Assembly: GCA_027483885.1 (NCBI GenBank)
Contig: JAIXTO010000113.1
Location: forward strand, 1-64,000
Reading direction: 5' to 3'
From: Rhizobiaceae bacterium
GTDB taxonomy: Bacteria; Pseudomonadota; Alphaproteobacteria; Rhizobiales; Rhizobiaceae
DNA: 64,000 nucleotides
Positions within the stretch are counted from its first letter, which is position 1; every line of letters begins with the position of its first letter. A program made the translations under genes and the position numbers. Shown piece by piece: positions 3,869 to 64,000 of this stretch. Below the pieces are notes generated by a model. It was not told the DNA's origin, did no database searches, and saw only the letters and a program-made list of their open reading frames with translations.

Positions 3869-3897
3869 TCCGGGGGAAGTCTTTGAACGCTTCTCAC

Positions 3898-3955
3898 GGC
3901 CCTTTAGCGACTTATTTAACGTGGCTGCAAGCCGGCCGGCCAAATCACCACGAGA
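3898..3955 (-). promoter_or_regulatory. SAM-II (metA motif) riboswitch
   Basis: Minus strand CGTGGTGATTTGGCCGGCCGGCTTGCAGCCACGTTAAATAAGTCGCTAAAGG matches the recalled SAM-II consensus, directly upstream of metA. Confidence 0.95.
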
Positions 3956-4021
3956 GGCCCTTTAAATAGGCGTTTCTTCTGCCCCCGTCAATCAGCGGGG
4001 AATTTCATGCTTTCTAACGTC

Positions 4022-8701: not shown

Positions 8702-8765
8702 TCGATACGCGTCGTGATTTGCGCACGACTTGCCAAGCCTCTTTCGTACCGCTAAATCTTCGCCT

Positions 8766-8862
8766 GCTCTAACGGGGTGCAACGGCTGCAAGGCCAAAGC
8801 TGAGAGACGGAAACGTCAACCCGCGGAACCTGATCCGGCTAACACCGGCGGAGGGATTAGAC
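8766..8862 (+). promoter_or_regulatory. TPP riboswitch (THI element)
   Basis: ACGGGGTGC...GCTGAGA...ACCCGCGGAACCTGATCCGGCTAACACCGGCGGAGGGA, directly upstream of thiB. Confidence 0.95.
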
Positions 8863-8915
8863 GGCTCGCATCCAGCGCCTGTTCTCCCTGTGTTGATCAA
8901 ACGAAGGAGGCGCCG

Positions 8916-12480: not shown

Positions 12481-14022
12481 ATGACGGTTCCAACTGAACG
12501 GACGACGATGACAGCGCTGGACCCGGCTTGCATGAAACGTGCAGGCCAGGGGGCTCGTGGGATGCGCGCCCTTGCCGCACTATTTGCCGCAGCAACGCTT
12601 CTCTCGGGCTGCCAGTCGGTGATCGACCAGACCTATCAGGCCAATGTCAAACCCTCGGCCAATCCGCAGATTGTCGATGAGGTGCAGAAGAACGATCCGC
12701 GTGCCCAGATGGGTGCCCGCGAGCATCCACGCATCGTTGCAAGTTATGGCGGCCAGTATCACGATGCCAAGACAGAACGGCTGGTGGCGCGCATTGCCGG
12801 CGCTCTCACCGCCGTCTCGGAAAATCCCAACCAGTCCTATCGCATCACCATCCTGAATTCGCCCGCGATCAACGCCTTTGCGCTTCCCGGCGGTTATCTC
12901 TACGTGACGCGCGGCCTGCTGGCGCTCGCCAATGATGCTTCGGAAGTGGCAGCCGTTCTCAGCCACGAAATGGCGCATGTGACGGCCAATCACGGCATCG
13001 AGCGCCAGAAGCGCGAGGAAGCCGAAGTGATTGCCAGCCGCGTGGTGGCCGAGGTTCTCTCAAGCGATCTGGCCGGCAAGCAGGCTCTGGCACGCGGAAA
13101 ACTGCGGCTTGCCGCCTTCTCCCGCCAGCAGGAACTGCAAGCCGATGTGATCGGTGTGCGCATGCTCGGCGAAGCCGGTTATGACCCCTATGCGGCGGCC
13201 CGTTTCCTCGATTCGATGTCGGCCTATGCGCGTTATTCGTCCGCTGACCCGGATACAGACCAGAGCCTCGACTTTCTCTCCAGCCATCCAAACGCTCCGC
13301 AGCGCGTGGAGCTTGCCCGCCAGCACGCCCGCGCCTTCGGCCAGGAAGGCACCGTGGGCGACAAGGGCCGCGACTATTACCTGACCGGTATAGACGGCCT
13401 TCTCTATGGCGACAGCCCGGAAGAGGGCTATGTGCGCAACGAAACCTTCCTCCATGCGGGCCTTGGCATCCGTTTCGACGTGCCGGAAGGTTTTCGCATC
13501 GACAACAAGGTGGAAGCGGTTCTTGCGACCGGGCCTGACGAAACCGCCATCCGCTTTGATGGCGTGCAGGCGACCGATGCGAACCAGAGCCTTTCGAACT
13601 ACCTGACGAGTGGCTGGGTGGCCGGGCTTCAGCCGGAAACCGTGCGGGAAACCACGATCAACGGTCTGCCGGCGGCAACCGCCAAGGCCTCTGCGGAACG
13701 CTGGGATTTCGACGTCACCGTTATCAGGCTCGACAAGCAGCTGTTCCGTTTCCTCACGGCCGTGCCGAAGGGCAGCACATCGCTTGAGGCAACCGCAGAT
13801 ACCATGCGGCGCACCTTCCGGCGCATGACGCCGCAGGAGGCGGCCGAGTTGCGGCCGCTTCGCGTGCGGGTCGTCACCGTGCAGCCGGGCGACAATATCA
13901 CCACCTTGGCTGCCCGCATGATGGGCACCGATCGCAAGCTCGATATGTTCAAGATGATCAATGCGCTGCCGACAGGCGCGTCGATCCTGCCCGGCCAGCG
14001 GGTCAAGATCATTTCCGATTAG
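12481..14022 (+). CDS. M48-family metalloprotease lipoprotein (start may be 12511)
   Basis: HEMAH zinc motif (VAAVLSHEMAHVTANHG), lipobox-like LLSGCQS, C-terminal LysM-like PGDNITTLAARM. Confidence 0.9.
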   Translation: MTVPTERTTMTALDPACMKRAGQGARGMRALAALFAAATLLSGCQSVIDQTYQANVKPSANPQIVDEVQKNDPRAQMGAREHPRIVASYGGQYHDAKTERLVARIAGALTAVSENPNQSYRITILNSPAINAFALPGGYLYVTRGLLALANDASEVAAVLSHEMAHVTANHGIERQKREEAEVIASRVVAEVLSSDLAGKQALARGKLRLAAFSRQQELQADVIGVRMLGEAGYDPYAAARFLDSMSAYARYSSADPDTDQSLDFLSSHPNAPQRVELARQHARAFGQEGTVGDKGRDYYLTGIDGLLYGDSPEEGYVRNETFLHAGLGIRFDVPEGFRIDNKVEAVLATGPDETAIRFDGVQATDANQSLSNYLTSGWVAGLQPETVRETTINGLPAATAKASAERWDFDVTVIRLDKQLFRFLTAVPKGSTSLEATADTMRRTFRRMTPQEAAELRPLRVRVVTVQPGDNITTLAARMMGTDRKLDMFKMINALPTGASILPGQRVKIISD

Positions 14023-14041
14023 GCTTCGAGCCGGGCCTGCG

Positions 14042-14905
14042 TCAGCAGGCCTCCGCCATTTGCGGATTGTTGGTGACGAGAGCCGATTTCAGTTTTTCGA
14101 TCGCCCGGCTTTCGATCTGGCGCACGCGCTCCTTGGAGATGCCAAGTTCGGCACCGAGCGCTTCCAGCGTTGCCCCGTCATCGGTCAGGCGGCGGGCGCG
14201 AATAATCTTCTTTTCGCGGTCGTTGAGCTTGGTGAGTGCCCCCTGCAGCCATTTCAGGCGGCGTTCGCCATCAATCATGAACGAGACCTGCTCATCCGGC
14301 AGCGGTTCAGCACTTTCCAGCATGTCGAGCCGTTCGCCACTGTCATTGTCGCCGGCAATCGAGGGCGCCTGCAGCGAGGCATCATTGCCGGATAGGCGGG
14401 CATCCATGGTCTGCACGTCGGCGAGGCTGACGCCGAGCGCGGTTGCGATCTCCGCATGAATATCATGGGCGGTCTTGGTATTGCCGCCGCGCGCAAGCTT
14501 GGCGCGCAGCCGGCGCAGGTTAAAGAACAGCGCCTTCTGCGCAGAACTCGTGCCGCCCCGAACAATCGACCAGTTGCGCAGGATATAGTCCTGCATGGAG
14601 GCGCGGATCCACCAGCTTGCATAGGTCGAAAATCGAACATCGCGTGACGGTTCAAACCTTGCCGCCGCTTCCAGCAGCCCTACATAACCCTCTTGTACAA
14701 GGTCACTCATCGGCAAACCGAAGCCGCGGAACTTGGAGGCCATGGCGATAACGAGACGCATATGGGCAAGCGCGATCTGGTTGCGGGCATCCCTGTCCTG
14801 ACCGTCTTTCCAGCGCACGGCGAGATTGCGCTCTTCCTCGCGCGCCAGATAAGGCGCAGCCATGGCGATCTTGATCATATTGCGGTCTGCGGACATGGCG
14901 TTCAT
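14042..14905 (-). CDS. rpoH2: RNA polymerase heat-shock-type sigma factor, RpoH2-like
   Basis: DLVQEGYVGLLEAAARFEPSRDVRFSTYASWWIRASMQDYILRNWSIVRGGTSSAQKALFFNLRR and C-terminal GISKERVRQIE. Confidence 0.85.
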   Translation of the reverse strand: MNAMSADRNMIKIAMAAPYLAREEERNLAVRWKDGQDRDARNQIALAHMRLVIAMASKFRGFGLPMSDLVQEGYVGLLEAAARFEPSRDVRFSTYASWWIRASMQDYILRNWSIVRGGTSSAQKALFFNLRRLRAKLARGGNTKTAHDIHAEIATALGVSLADVQTMDARLSGNDASLQAPSIAGDNDSGERLDMLESAEPLPDEQVSFMIDGERRLKWLQGALTKLNDREKKIIRARRLTDDGATLEALGAELGISKERVRQIESRAIEKLKSALVTNNPQMAEAC

Positions 14906-15147
14906 TGCGCTCTCCATGAAACTGTTTGACCAGACAAAGGCGCATGAACCCCAAAACCTTCCACCTGTTCGGCCAGAAGACCGGTCGGGCGGACAGCATC
15001 AACGGCATGCCTCTTTGCTCCCCTCGTTCAACTCAGGCGGAGAGGGCTTGGCCCTTCCCCTGTCTGGGCACGGCAAAGGCAGCTTCAAGAGGCCGCATCT
15101 TTCGCCGTACCGGCGGGTGAACGCGTGCCTTGTCAAAAAGTTCCAAC

Positions 15148-57796: not shown

Positions 57797-58766
57797 GGCT
57801 TTTTCTCTCGCCTTCCTCGCTTTGCTTATTGAACGGCTTGTCGGTTATCCGCAATGGCTGGTGGATCGCATCGGCCATCCCGTCATCTGGATCGGCGCGC
57901 TGATCAGCCGGCTAGAAAACCGGTTCAACGATCTCGACCTGCCGTTCGGACAGCGCAAGCGCAACGGCTTTTTTGCTTTTCTCATCCTGCTTTTCGCCGC
58001 TGTTCTGCCAGCGCTTCTCCTCCAAAGCGTACTGGCTTGGCTGCCGCTTGGCCTCATCATCACGGCCCTCCTCTCCTCCAGCCTGCTTGCCCAGAAAAGC
58101 CTGGAAGAGCATGTGCGGGCCGTGGCCGAAGCGCTGGAAACCGGCGGTCTCGAAAAGGGCCGCAAGGCCGTGTCTATGATTGTCGGGCGCGATCCCGATC
58201 AGTTGGACGAAGCCGCCGTCTGCCGCGCGGCAATAGAAAGCCTTGCCGAAAACTTTTCCGATGGCGTGACCGCGCCAGCCTTCTGGCTCGGCGTTGGCGG
58301 GCTGCCGGGCGCTTGCGCCTACAAGGCCACCAATACCGCCGACAGCATGATCGGCCATCTCAATGCCCGCTACAGCGCCTATGGCTGGGCGGCAGCCCGG
58401 TTCGATGATCTCATCAACCTGCCCGCCTCGCGCCTGACGGCACTCCTGTTCATCGCAGCCGCCGCTCTGGTGCCGGGCGCATCAGCGAAAGCGGCCTGGG
58501 CTGCGGTGCGGCGCGATGCGCATCACCACAAATCGCCCAATGCCGGCTGGCCAGAGGCCGCCATGGCCGGCGCGCTGGGCCTCGGGCTTGCAGGCCCGCG
58601 CGTTTATGGCGGGGTTCTAGTCGAAGATCACATCATGGGAGAGGGCGGACGGCGCGAGGGAACCAGCGCGGATATTCGCCGCGCGCTTGCCCTTTCGCGC
58701 GTGGCCGACCTGTTGCTGATCATCCTTTTCGGCCTGATCGCTGTCGCCCTTACCGTGCGAGGCTGA
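57795..58766 (+). CDS. cbiB: Adenosylcobinamide-phosphate synthase
   Basis: [66 protein letters not shown]. Confidence 0.94.
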
Positions 58767-60222
58767 GCAAAAGGTCCAGATCGAGATGCTGTTCCAGATG
58801 CGCGGCAAGCCGGTCGAGCACGTCCTCCACGCCCTGTTCGTAATCAAGCCGCGTCGCCTCCCCGCCAAGCCGCGTCAGCCAGGATGAACGCTGGCGATCA
58901 TCGGCAAACAAGCCGTGGATATAGGTGCCGCTGACCAGCCCGTCGGCCGAGCGAGCCCCTTCCGGTCCACCGCCGATATGGGCAAAGCATCGCGTCCGGT
59001 CCGGCCCGGCCGTTTCACCGACATGCATTTCATAGCCGGCAAAGGAGTTTCCATCCGCCGTCTCGCCGGAGACCGCCACAAGATGCTTTTGTCCGGTGAG
59101 GCGGGTTTCCACGTCGAGGAGGCCGAGCCCCGGTTCCACGGTACCGGCGGGACCTTCGATACCATCGGGATCGGCCACCGTTTTGCCGAGCATCTGATAC
59201 CCGCCGCAAAGGCCGAGCACCGGTTTGCCACGGCGGCGATGCGCGGCGATATCGATATCCAGACCGGATTGCTTGAGCACCTGCAGGTCGGCGATGGTTG
59301 CCTTGGAGCCGAGAAGCAACACGAGATCGGCATCGGCTGGAAGGACCTCGCCGGGCCTGACCCGCAAAAGCTCCACCTGCGGTTCGGCATCCAGCGGATC
59401 GAGATCGTCGAAATTGGAGACATGCGGCAGGATCGGCACGGCGATGCGGATTTTGGCGCCGGCCTTCGCGGCAGGTTTGGATTGAAGCGCCAGCGCATCC
59501 TCGGCCGGAAGCCGGATGGCCTCGGCAAAATGCGGCAGGAGGCCGATGGGTGACCAGCCGGTAAAACCTTCGATCATCGTCATGCCCTCGGCAAACAGTG
59601 TCGGGTCACCGCGAAACCGGTTGACGATAAAGGCGCGGATCATCGCCGCATCCTGCGCATCAAGCACCAGTTTCGTGCCGGCAAGGCTTGCGATCACGCC
59701 GCCGCGGTCGATATCGCCGATCAGCACCACCGGCACATCGGCTGCGCGAGCAAAACCCATATTGGCAATGTCGTTGCGGCGCAGGTTCACCTCCGAAGCG
59801 CTGCCCGCCCCCTCGACCAAAACCAGATCGGCATCGGACTTCAGGCGGGAAAAACTGTCGAGCACGCGCGGCATCAGGCCGGCCTTGATCTGCTGGTATT
59901 CGGCAGCCTTGGCATTGCCTTCCACGCGGCCCTGCACCACCAGCTGGGCACCGACCTCGCTCTGCGGTTTCAGAAGCACCGGATTCATGTGGACGGAAAG
60001 CGGCGCCCGCGCCGCGCGCGCCTGCAGCGCCTGAGCCCGGCCAATTTCGCCACCATCGGCCGTCACCGCTGCATTGTTCGACATGTTCTGCGGCTTGAAC
60101 GGTAGAACGCGCAGCCCGCGCAGCGTAAAGGCGCGCGCAAGCCCCGCCACGATGAGCGACTTGCCGACATCCGAACCGGTGCCCTGGAACATCAATGCCT
60201 TGGCGGGCCGTTGCTGCGTCAT
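58750..60222 (-). CDS. cobQ: Cobyric acid synthase
   Basis: [41 protein letters not shown]. Confidence 0.96.
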
Positions 60223-60854
60223 CAGAACTCGATCCCGGCCTGCGCCTTCACGCCGGCCTTGAAGTGATGTTTCACCAGCGTCATCTCGGTCACCATGTCG
60301 GCGGCCTCGATCAGCGCCGGCTTGGCGTTGCGGCCGGTGACGATGACATGAAGGTCCGGACGGCGGGCGCTCAGATCCGCAATCACCCGCTCGAGATCGA
60401 GGTAATCGTAGCGCAGTGCAATGTTCAACTCGTCGAGGATCAAGAGGCCGACGTCAGGCTCGGCCATCATCTCCAGCGCCTTGTCCCAGGCCCGTTCGGC
60501 AGCGGCCACGTCGCGTTTCAGGTCCTGCGTATCCCAGGTAAATCCCTCACCCATCGTGTGCCAGATCATCCGGTCGCCAAACGCCTGCAGCGCCACGCGC
60601 TCACCCGTATCCCAGGCGCCCTTGATGAACTGCACCACGGCGACCTTGCGGCCATGGCCGAGCATGCGCAGCGCAAGCCCGAAGGCTGCCGTCGACTTGC
60701 CCTTGCCGGGGCCGGTATTGACGATCAGCAGACCCTTTTCGAGGGTCTTTTCCGCCACTTCCGCATCCTGCACCGCCTTGCGGTTTTCCATCTTGCGGCG
60801 GTGGCGTTCGGCCTCGCGTTCGTCGATTTCCTTCATCGGGCTCTCCTGGCGCAT
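60222..60854 (-). CDS. cobO: Cob(I)yrinic acid a,c-diamide adenosyltransferase
   Basis: [48 protein letters not shown] overlap with cobQ. Confidence 0.95.
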
Positions 60855-61264: not shown

Positions 61265-61696
61265 GTGACAGTGGATTTATCAGCACGAAACGAGCGTCCC
61301 GAAACGGCGGACATCCCCGTCCGTGCGGTGATCGTGCATGTCTGCGAAACCTGCCGCAGCGCCACGCAAGACCCGGCTGCCCCCCGCGAAGGCGCCGTGC
61401 TTGCACAAAACCTTGCTCACCATAACGAACCCGGCATTAAGGTGGAGAGTGTTGCCTGCCTTGCCAATTGCAAGCGGGGCCTCAGCGCCAGCATCCAGAG
61501 CAGCACCGGCTGGAGCTACATTTTCGGCGATCTCACCACCGAAAGCGGCGAGGATCTTCTCATTGGCGCGCGCCTGCTTGCCGGCTCGGCCGATGGGCTG
61601 ATGCCGTGGAAGGGCCGTCCCGACAGCCTGAAACGCGGTATGATTGCCCGCATTCCGCCGTTTCCCTCCGCTCAATCCCAGAACCAGAAGCCTTGA
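61265..61696 (+). CDS. DUF1636-type Cys-containing metal-binding protein (start uncertain, 61127-61271)
   Basis: VIVHVCETCRSATQD...VESVACLANCKRGLSASIQSSTGWSYIFGDL; between B12 riboswitch and cobW. Confidence 0.85.
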   Translation: MTVDLSARNERPETADIPVRAVIVHVCETCRSATQDPAAPREGAVLAQNLAHHNEPGIKVESVACLANCKRGLSASIQSSTGWSYIFGDLTTESGEDLLIGARLLAGSADGLMPWKGRPDSLKRGMIARIPPFPSAQSQNQKP

Positions 61697-61707
61697 AGGA
61701 CGATCCC

Positions 61708-62745
61708 ATGACCTCTTCCCTCGCCCGCATTCCCTGCACGGTTGTCACCGGTTTTCTCGGCGCCGGCAAAACCACGCTGCTTTCCCAGGCGCTGCAGAAC
61801 ATCAAGGGCAAGCGGCTTGCCATCATCGTCAACGAGTTCGGCGATGTCGGCATCGATGGCGAGATCCTGAAAAGCTGCGGCATCGAGAATTGCCCTGAGG
61901 ACAATATCATCGAGCTGGCAAACGGCTGCATCTGCTGCACGGTGGCCTATGATTTCGTGCCGGCGATCGACCGCATTCTGGCGATGGAACCGAAGGTGGA
62001 TCATATCCTCATCGAAACCTCCGGCCTTGCCCTGCCAAAGCCCCTGATCCAGGCCTTCCAGTGGCCGAGCGTCAAAAGCCGGGTCACCGTGGATGGCGTG
62101 ATCGCCGTGGTGGACGGGCTGGCGCTGGCCGAAGGCCGCGTGGCCGACGACATGGACGCGCTGGCCGCCCAGCGGGTGAACGACGATGCGCTCGACCATG
62201 ACGACCCCGTCGAAGAAGTCTTTGAAGACCAGATCGCCTGCGCCGACCTCGTTATTCTCACCAAGGCCGACCTTCTGTCGCCTGCCGATCTAGAAAAGGC
62301 CCGCGCCCATGTGAGCGCCCACCTGCCGCGCGCCGTGCGCATCGTCAATTCGGAAAAGGGCGCGGTCGATCCGGCTGTGTTTATCGGCCTTGGCCTTGCC
62401 GTCGAGGACGACATCGAGAACCGCAAAACGCATCACGACGATGAACTGGACCACGAGCACGACGATTTCGACAGCTTTGTCCTCGATATCGCAGCGATAT
62501 CCGATCCCGAAAGCCTCAGCCGGCGCATTGCCGATGTAACGGCGGCCGAAAAGGTGCTGCGCATCAAGGGTTATGTGGAAGTTGAGGGCAAGCCGATGCG
62601 GCTCCTGGTGCAGGCCGTCGGCCCGCGCGTGAACCATTATTTCGACCGCGCCTGGGGTGCCGGCGAGGATCGTCGTTCGCGCCTCGTCGTGATCGGTGAA
62701 AAGGGCATCGATGCCGCCCGCATCGGACAAATATTGGCGGCCTGA
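61708..62745 (+). CDS. cobW: Cobalamin biosynthesis protein CobW (GTPase metallochaperone)
   Basis: VVTGFLGAGKTTLLSQ, GCICCTV, ILIETSGLALP, His/Asp-rich linker HHDDELDHEHDD. Confidence 0.96.
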   Translation: MTSSLARIPCTVVTGFLGAGKTTLLSQALQNIKGKRLAIIVNEFGDVGIDGEILKSCGIENCPEDNIIELANGCICCTVAYDFVPAIDRILAMEPKVDHILIETSGLALPKPLIQAFQWPSVKSRVTVDGVIAVVDGLALAEGRVADDMDALAAQRVNDDALDHDDPVEEVFEDQIACADLVILTKADLLSPADLEKARAHVSAHLPRAVRIVNSEKGAVDPAVFIGLGLAVEDDIENRKTHHDDELDHEHDDFDSFVLDIAAISDPESLSRRIADVTAAEKVLRIKGYVEVEGKPMRLLVQAVGPRVNHYFDRAWGAGEDRRSRLVVIGEKGIDAARIGQILAA

Positions 62746-64000
62746 TGCACATCCTCGCCACCACATCCTCGTCGCTCGACGATCTGATCGAACCGGTCGA
62801 TCTCAACCAGACGCCGGGCGATGTGGTGGTGCTGTCCTTTACCGACAGCGACCTGAACGGCATGGCGGCTGCCTGGGACAGGCTGTCGCGCGCAGACCTG
62901 TCGCTGCGCCTTGCCCAGCTTTCAGACCTGCGCCATCCGATGTCCGTCGATCTCTGGATCGACAAGGTCGCCCGCCATGCACGGGTGCTGATGGTGCGCG
63001 TGCTCGGCGGTTATGACCGCTGGCGTTACGGGGTCGAAGAACTGGCGCGTCTGGCGCGGCGAAAAAAAATTCCGCTCATTCTTCTGCCCGGCGAATGCAG
63101 CGAGACGGACGACCGTCTGACGGCCGCCTCCACCGTATCCGGCGAGGAAATCACCCGCCTCCTCGCCTTCTTCCGCGAGGGCGGGCCTGACAATCTCGAC
63201 CGTATGGCGCTGAGCCTTCAGGCCCTGGCAGATGGTCAAGGCGACGTGCGGCCTGTGGCTGAGGCCGTACCAAAACTTGGCTTTTACCGGTCGGGCCACG
63301 GCGTGGTCTCCCTTCCAGACGCGCTGGAGGGTTTGGCGGGTAAAAAAATTCTGCCGCTTCTGTTTTACCGCTCCATGCTGCTCGCCGGCGACGTCGCGCC
63401 CATCGATGCGCTGTCGGAAGCGCTCATGGCGCGTGGCTTTGCGCCCCTTCCCGTCTTCGTGCCGGGGCTGAAGGATGAGGGCACACTGACCTTCCTCCAC
63501 GAGACGTTGTCGCGCCTTGAACCTGCCGCGATCATCACCTCGACGGCTTTTGCGAGCCACGCGGAACCGGACGGGAAAACCCTGTTCGACCGGCTTGGCG
63601 TGCCGGTTTTTCAGGCCGTGATCGCCACCACAAAACGCGAGGCCTGGATCGACAGCCAGCGCGGGCTCGGTCCCTCGGATCTGGCCATGCATGTGGTGCT
63701 GCCGGAACTCGATGGCCGCATTCTCGCAGGCGTCCTCTCCTTTAAGACTGAGCGCGAAGGCGATACGGCATATGGCTTTTCGGGCTTTGCCAATCGCCCG
63801 GAGCCGGACCGGGTGGAGGCCGTGGCAGACCGCATTGCCCGGCATATGGCGCTTCAGCAGACGCCGCGCGCTGAGCGCCGGATCGTCATCCTGATGCCGG
63901 ATTATCCGGGCGCTGCCGGCCGCACGGGTTATGCCGTCGGCCTTGATGTGCCGGAAAGCGTGCGGCAGATGCTTATTCAGTTAGCCGGGCAAGGATATGG
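62745..64000 (+). CDS. cobN: Cobaltochelatase subunit CobN, 3' truncated by window edge
   Basis: ATG overlaps cobW stop (TGATG); open to window end: MHILATTSSSLDDLIEPVDLNQTPGDVVVLSFTDSDL...VRVLGGYDRWRYGVEEL; absent from ORF track because no stop in window. Confidence 0.92.
   Translation, partial: MHILATTSSSLDDLIEPVDLNQTPGDVVVLSFTDSDLNGMAAAWDRLSRADLSLRLAQLSDLRHPMSVDLWIDKVARHARVLMVRVLGGYDRWRYGVEELARLARRKKIPLILLPGECSETDDRLTAASTVSGEEITRLLAFFREGGPDNLDRMALSLQALADGQGDVRPVAEAVPKLGFYRSGHGVVSLPDALEGLAGKKILPLLFYRSMLLAGDVAPIDALSEALMARGFAPLPVFVPGLKDEGTLTFLHETLSRLEPAAIITSTAFASHAEPDGKTLFDRLGVPVFQAVIATTKREAWIDSQRGLGPSDLAMHVVLPELDGRILAGVLSFKTEREGDTAYGFSGFANRPEPDRVEAVADRIARHMALQQTPRAERRIVILMPDYPGAAGRTGYAVGLDVPESVRQMLIQLAGQGY

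Follow-up and report, generated by a model that had tools for sequence, protein, structure and literature searches.

DUF1636, a Ferredoxin-like Protein Family Tied to Both Vitamin B12 Synthesis and Vitamin B12 Uptake Genes in Alphaproteobacteria

Introduction

DUF1636 is an already known protein family (Pfam PF07845), the name of which assigns it no function. A thioredoxin-like [2Fe-2S] ferredoxin (TLF) fold was proposed for this family in 2015, together with a compensation in which a nearby additional cysteine may stand in for one of the classical cluster ligands (PMC4520260), and others have thereby established the ferredoxin-like fold of the family. One of the closest described systems is a crystal structure released in February 2025 (9jn8), the “thioredoxin-like ferredoxin of Rhodobacter capsulatus” (“ORF378”), which owes its ferredoxin name to its depositors. 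The TLF of Aquifex aeolicus (1f37, 1m2a) has the same fold class and the same CxxxC second pair as the DUF1636 proteins (PMC4520260), but its first two cysteines are widely spaced, whereas the first pair of DUF1636 is a CxxC, and DUF1636 has an additional conserved C-terminal part. The thioredoxin-like [2Fe-2S] fold, with four ligands that align at a marginal significance (E 0.03–0.3), is also found in NuoE (the 24 kDa subunit of complex I), HydC, and FDH gamma, although these are subunits of NADH enzymes, in contrast with the free-standing DUF1636. The flavin co(II)rrin reductase CobR would act at the step proposed below for DUF1636, but is a flavoprotein (PMC6249242). The search of the literature on 9jn8, ORF378 in B12, COG5469, and DUF1636 in B12 regulons recovered only PMC4520260 and a cysteine database, and an earlier notice of the linkage may exist in the older papers on B12 regulons, which lie outside this search.

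The gene analyzed here is a typical representative of a DUF that has already been described and for which the fold is known, and what is added is its genomic context, that is, the tie of DUF1636 to the genes of both B12 synthesis and B12 uptake. Little is established about where the electrons come from that reduce corrinoid cobalt and that serve several of the redox steps in the aerobic synthesis of B12. A riboswitch-controlled family of ferredoxins tied to both cobalt insertion and B12 uptake would be a concrete candidate for this source and, if this is true, a function could be attributed to a DUF that is present in roughly half (45 of the 86) of the genomes of Alphaproteobacteria in the first sample.

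The Riboswitch Operon and Its Surroundings

The stretch of DNA analyzed (the window) covers 64,000 nucleotides of the genome of a bacterium of the family Rhizobiaceae. A complete cobalamin riboswitch (RF00174; 60936–61142, plus strand; cmscan 133.4 bits, E 2.3e-33, model positions 1–189) forms the leader of an operon in the same orientation, in which the DUF1636 gene (61271–61696, plus strand; 141 amino acids; PF07845, E 1.4e-27) is followed, after a gap of 11 bp, by cobW (61708–62745, plus strand), which encodes a G3E GTPase of the cobalt chaperone type (TIGR02475, 552.6 bits against a cut-off of 332.1). The next gene is cobN (NF008973/TIGR02257), of the “short” type, the 5' part of which lies in the window (62745–64000, plus strand). 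The full cobN encodes 1119 amino acids, extends beyond the window (open reading frame in L085, 4745–8104), and scores above the cut-off as a whole gene. This order of riboswitch, DUF1636-type gene, and cobW-cobN had been read from the letters of the sequence in a preliminary description, and is confirmed here. On the other side of the riboswitch, the corrinoid adenosyltransferase gene cobO (60222–60854, minus strand; PF02572, E 6.2e-66) diverges from the operon, adjoined by the cobyric acid synthase gene cobQ (58750–60222, minus strand; GATase_3, E 1.9e-50; CbiA, E 4.9e-19).

The DUF1636 reading frame starts at the GTG at 61271, or at the in-frame GTG at 61265, and ends at 61696. The differences between this gene and its relatives at codon positions 1/2/3 amount to 26/14/50 and 38/33/68, and this concentration of the changes at the third position indicates a real gene, which is also supported by the maintenance of the DUF1636-cobW-cobN order in many genomes. 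The closest named relative of the locus is found in Neorhizobium galegae, with a DUF1636 protein that is 76% identical. In the longer contig, the operon continues as cobN-cobG-cobH-cobI-cobJ and further cob genes, with the names past cobN being based on the reading of the sequences and the order of the genes. A similar reading of the same contig places a minus-strand gene for CbiD (L085:14731-15942; G000 C162:72731-73942) between cobM and cobA. No cobF was seen in L085, and a CobF gene adjoins a short second DUF1636 in L099.

The genome has a single copy of DUF1636, that of the window, and three B12 riboswitches in 5.5 Mb, including the one described here, a density at which the proximity of a riboswitch to DUF1636 by chance is negligible. 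The other two (L168, G000 C230; L169, G000 C213) precede importer genes of the periplasmic-binding-protein/FecCD class and cobalt transporter genes of the CbtA type. The window also contains a SAM_alpha riboswitch (3884–3961, minus strand) and a TPP riboswitch (8763–8873, plus strand).

The preliminary description had also noted the lack of a cobP gene, and stated that rhizobial relatives often have cobP before cobW. The gene is indeed absent from this position, but is present on another contig of the same genome (G000:C225:237-728). This order, riboswitch-cobP-cobW-cobN, occurs without DUF1636 in an Ensifer-like genus (the genus is a guess) of the same family, but not in most of the rhizobia sampled. 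The slot between the riboswitch and cobW may hold DUF1636, cobP, a CbtA cobalt transporter gene, or nothing, with CbtA filling it in L111, L114, and L120, followed by cobP in the last of these. Given that the Ensifer-like rhizobia with the riboswitch-cobP-cobW order have no DUF1636, the synthesis of B12 does not in itself require this protein, and other genomes also carry CobN and CobW without it.

The Protein and Its Predicted Fold

The protein matches the whole of the PF07845 profile (positions 1–117 of 117; 96.8 bits, with the cut-off at 31.6), with the cysteine pattern and the C-terminal RIPP motif of the family, and no NCBIfam model matched it. The cysteines of its CETC (C25, C28) and CLANC (C63, C67) motifs are spaced C-x2-C-x34-C-x3-C and, together with G41, G109, and R127, are invariant in an alignment of 45 relatives. 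All four are present in 110 of the 112 copies collected in the present analysis, and the remaining two copies are cut short in the open reading frame calls. A further stretch, PWxxRPxxxRxxxxARIPP, is conserved toward the C terminus.

The AlphaFold2 model of the protein (mean pLDDT 90.4) has a predicted thioredoxin-like fold, and its best Foldseek match is 9jn8 (E 3.5e-13, TM 0.74/0.87), on which it superposes at 1.8 Å. This structure belongs to the same family by sequence (E 2e-19), and is approximately 35% identical to the protein. The next matches are the Aquifex structures 1f37/1m2a (E 2.5e-3 to 5e-3), for which the TM is only about 0.5/0.6. The profile search gave a marginal match (E 0.03–0.1) in which the four cysteines are paired with the ligands of the 24 kDa complex I subunit.

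The preliminary description had likened the spacing of the cysteines to that of the cluster ligands of the TLFs. The fold and the four cysteines, which could ligate a cluster, bear out this likeness in both the model and 9jn8, but the spacing is not the classical one, given that the second ligand has moved beside the first. The protein is best termed “TLF-like, DUF1636 subgroup”, rather than a classical TLF, because a CxxC replaces the distant second ligand. The protein would be expected to bind a [2Fe-2S] cluster and to transfer electrons, based on the likeness of its fold and ligands to those of the ferredoxins.

Gene Neighborhoods across the Family

In the sample of the phylum, PF07845 scores above the cut-off in 45 of the 299 genomes, all of which belong to the same class as the window. 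The neighborhoods of the 112 copies were classified by a script using BLAST and distance thresholds. The largest class is formed by the 52 copies that precede cobW, almost all of which (50) are separated from the CobW match by no more than about 70 bp, and 49 of which are preceded by a B12 riboswitch at a distance of up to 1.5 kb.

A second class contains 18 copies, from 10 coded families, found in operons with a BtuB-like receptor or a FecCD/BtuFCD-type importer, for which the “B12 uptake” label rests on the class of the protein, the riboswitch, and the neighboring salvage genes, with the receptor and importers scoring under the NCBIfam cut-offs for BtuB, BtuC, BtuF, and BtuD, which leaves the substrate uncertain. 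In 11 of these 18, DUF1636 lies directly behind a riboswitch (up to 1.5 kb upstream), which Rfam confirms in five of the 11 operons, as well as in two others that have the riboswitch before the receptor gene. In L048, L051, L054, L069, L071-L074, L078, and L154, a B12 riboswitch stands immediately before the DUF1636 gene and importer genes of the BtuD/BtuF/BtuC type immediately after it, and several of the genomes with loci of this type also carry a cobW-linked copy. In L054, a gene for a heavy-metal P1B-type ATPase (12531–14939) comes after the riboswitch-DUF1636-BtuDFC operon.

Another 16 copies adjoin other B12 genes, as in DUF1636-cobC-cobD in coded family f16, DUF1636-cobP in G047, and cobA-DUF1636-cobF in G083. 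The other 26 copies have no B12-linked neighbor, so that the link of the family with B12 across genomes, the failure of which had been named in the preliminary description as evidence against its reading, holds for most copies, but not for all. Divergent copies without B12 neighbors are found in L130, L136, L158, L164, and L125-L128, with an amidohydrolase-like gene beside some of them (L136, L164), and may possibly have a separate function. In the tree, which is based on a short alignment and has many unresolved forks, the well-supported branches force a minimum of three changes of label for the uptake context and for the cobW context alike.

Proposed Function and Alternatives

The two contexts suggest that DUF1636 probably helps to handle the cobalt ring of the vitamin, and they shift its likely function from that of a helper of CobW to that of a general corrinoid redox protein. 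The redox role in corrinoid handling raised in the preliminary description is plausible and slightly favored. Our tentative proposal, which falls somewhat short of an even chance, is that DUF1636 is a small cytosolic TLF that passes single electrons in the handling of corrinoids, most likely in the reduction of the corrinoid cobalt before adenosylation of the CobO/PduO type. Cobalt reduction before adenosylation would be the obvious redox step shared by synthesis and salvage, and the context of the genes would link this step to DUF1636.

Under this proposal, the riboswitch would repress DUF1636 when B12 is plentiful, so that the protein would be made when B12 is scarce. By passing single electrons, DUF1636 would keep the corrinoid cobalt reduced, or bring it to this state, and the reduced cobalt would then be open to adenosylation by an enzyme of the CobO/PduO type. 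The reduction would be common to the synthesis of the ring, where it would come just after the insertion of cobalt by CobN, and to the salvage of imported corrinoids; since DUF1636 is found near both synthesis and uptake genes, a step common to the two routes would fit best. A broader version, in which DUF1636 proteins would be dedicated B12-regulated ferredoxins that feed cobalt reduction as a common supply for synthesis and salvage in the Alphaproteobacteria, with separate paralogs for the uptake and cobW operons of the same genome, is more doubtful.

The cobO gene divergently adjacent to the operon in the window argues for the role in cobalt reduction. The CobN genomes without DUF1636 and the 26 copies without a B12 neighbor count against it, as does the fact that the known co(II)rrin reductase, the flavoenzyme CobR, works without DUF1636, given that B12 was produced in Escherichia coli with CobR and CobW, and no ferredoxin is mentioned (PMC6249242). 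A further point against it is that the CobO-type adenosyltransferase (PF02572) was not found in G525 and G539, two of the four uptake-type genomes described below, in a search limited to that type.

The alternative that survives best, although unlikely, is that DUF1636 is a partner of CobW and CobN, which would either bind metal through its cysteines or keep the cobalt or the thiols of CobW reduced during the loading of CobN. This alternative would account for the close spacing of the DUF1636 and cobW genes, is consistent with the presence of CbtA cobalt transporter genes in these clusters, and draws on the co-occurrence of DUF1636 with CobN in the Alphaproteobacteria, where 44 genomes have both, one has only DUF1636, 13 have only CobN, and 28 have neither (Fisher p 2e-11, ignoring relatedness). 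The same counts show DUF1636 to be absent from 13 of the 57 CobN genomes of the class, with the absences being called from assemblies that are 96–100% complete. Both the fold and the cysteine pattern are those of a ferredoxin, the name given to the solved relative. Nor is the family confined to the genomes with CobN and CobW, given that neither protein scores over the cut-off in G214, G362, G525, and G539, where DUF1636 lies beside BtuB/BtuFCD-like genes. In G214, for example, the riboswitch is followed by a BtuB-like receptor, a small open reading frame, DUF1636, DBI_PRT (cobT-type), and then cobC, cobD, cobQ, and cobP. A role solely in the insertion of cobalt misfits the family because these four genomes keep DUF1636 in their uptake operons, which also weakens the suggestion of the preliminary description that the protein might handle cobalt or zinc only together with CobW.

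It is less probable still that DUF1636 is an Fe-S sensor or regulator of the status of B12, cobalt, or iron, or a redox protein with a solely regulatory link to B12. The small size of the protein, the variety of its B12 gene neighbors, and the lack of fusions among the copies inspected would suit a sensor, as would the conserved C-terminal stretch, which would be superfluous in a plain ferredoxin. However, the Pfam search of the protein recovered no DNA-binding or nucleotide-binding domain, and its fold matches those of electron carriers. The Fe-S monooxygenase CobG requires a reductant, and in the majority of the rhizobial and rhodobacterial clusters its gene comes after cobN within one operon, but the donation of electrons by DUF1636 to this oxygen-dependent ring-contraction enzyme, or to CobZ, is very unlikely, given that co-occurrence gives it no support: CobG and CobZ are not over the cut-off in eight genomes with DUF1636 (G047, G099, G135, G205, G226, G232, G235, and G297), which argues against an exclusive donor, the salvage genomes without CobN retain DUF1636, and the Ensifer-like genomes have CobG without it.

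Size Classes of CobN

Of the long open reading frames that hinted at gene fusions of DUF1636, those inspected (L097 and L052, for example) proved to be overlapping frames. The possibility that the long type of CobN contains a fused DUF1636 or ferredoxin in place of the free protein was rejected, given that its additional stretch of approximately 100 residues has no cysteine. The CobN proteins come in two sizes (window 62745–64000; L105-L124), with the short type of the window being distinguished from the long type by the lack of this stretch (model positions 698–808), and the DUF1636-cobW-cobN neighborhood is found almost exclusively with the short type.
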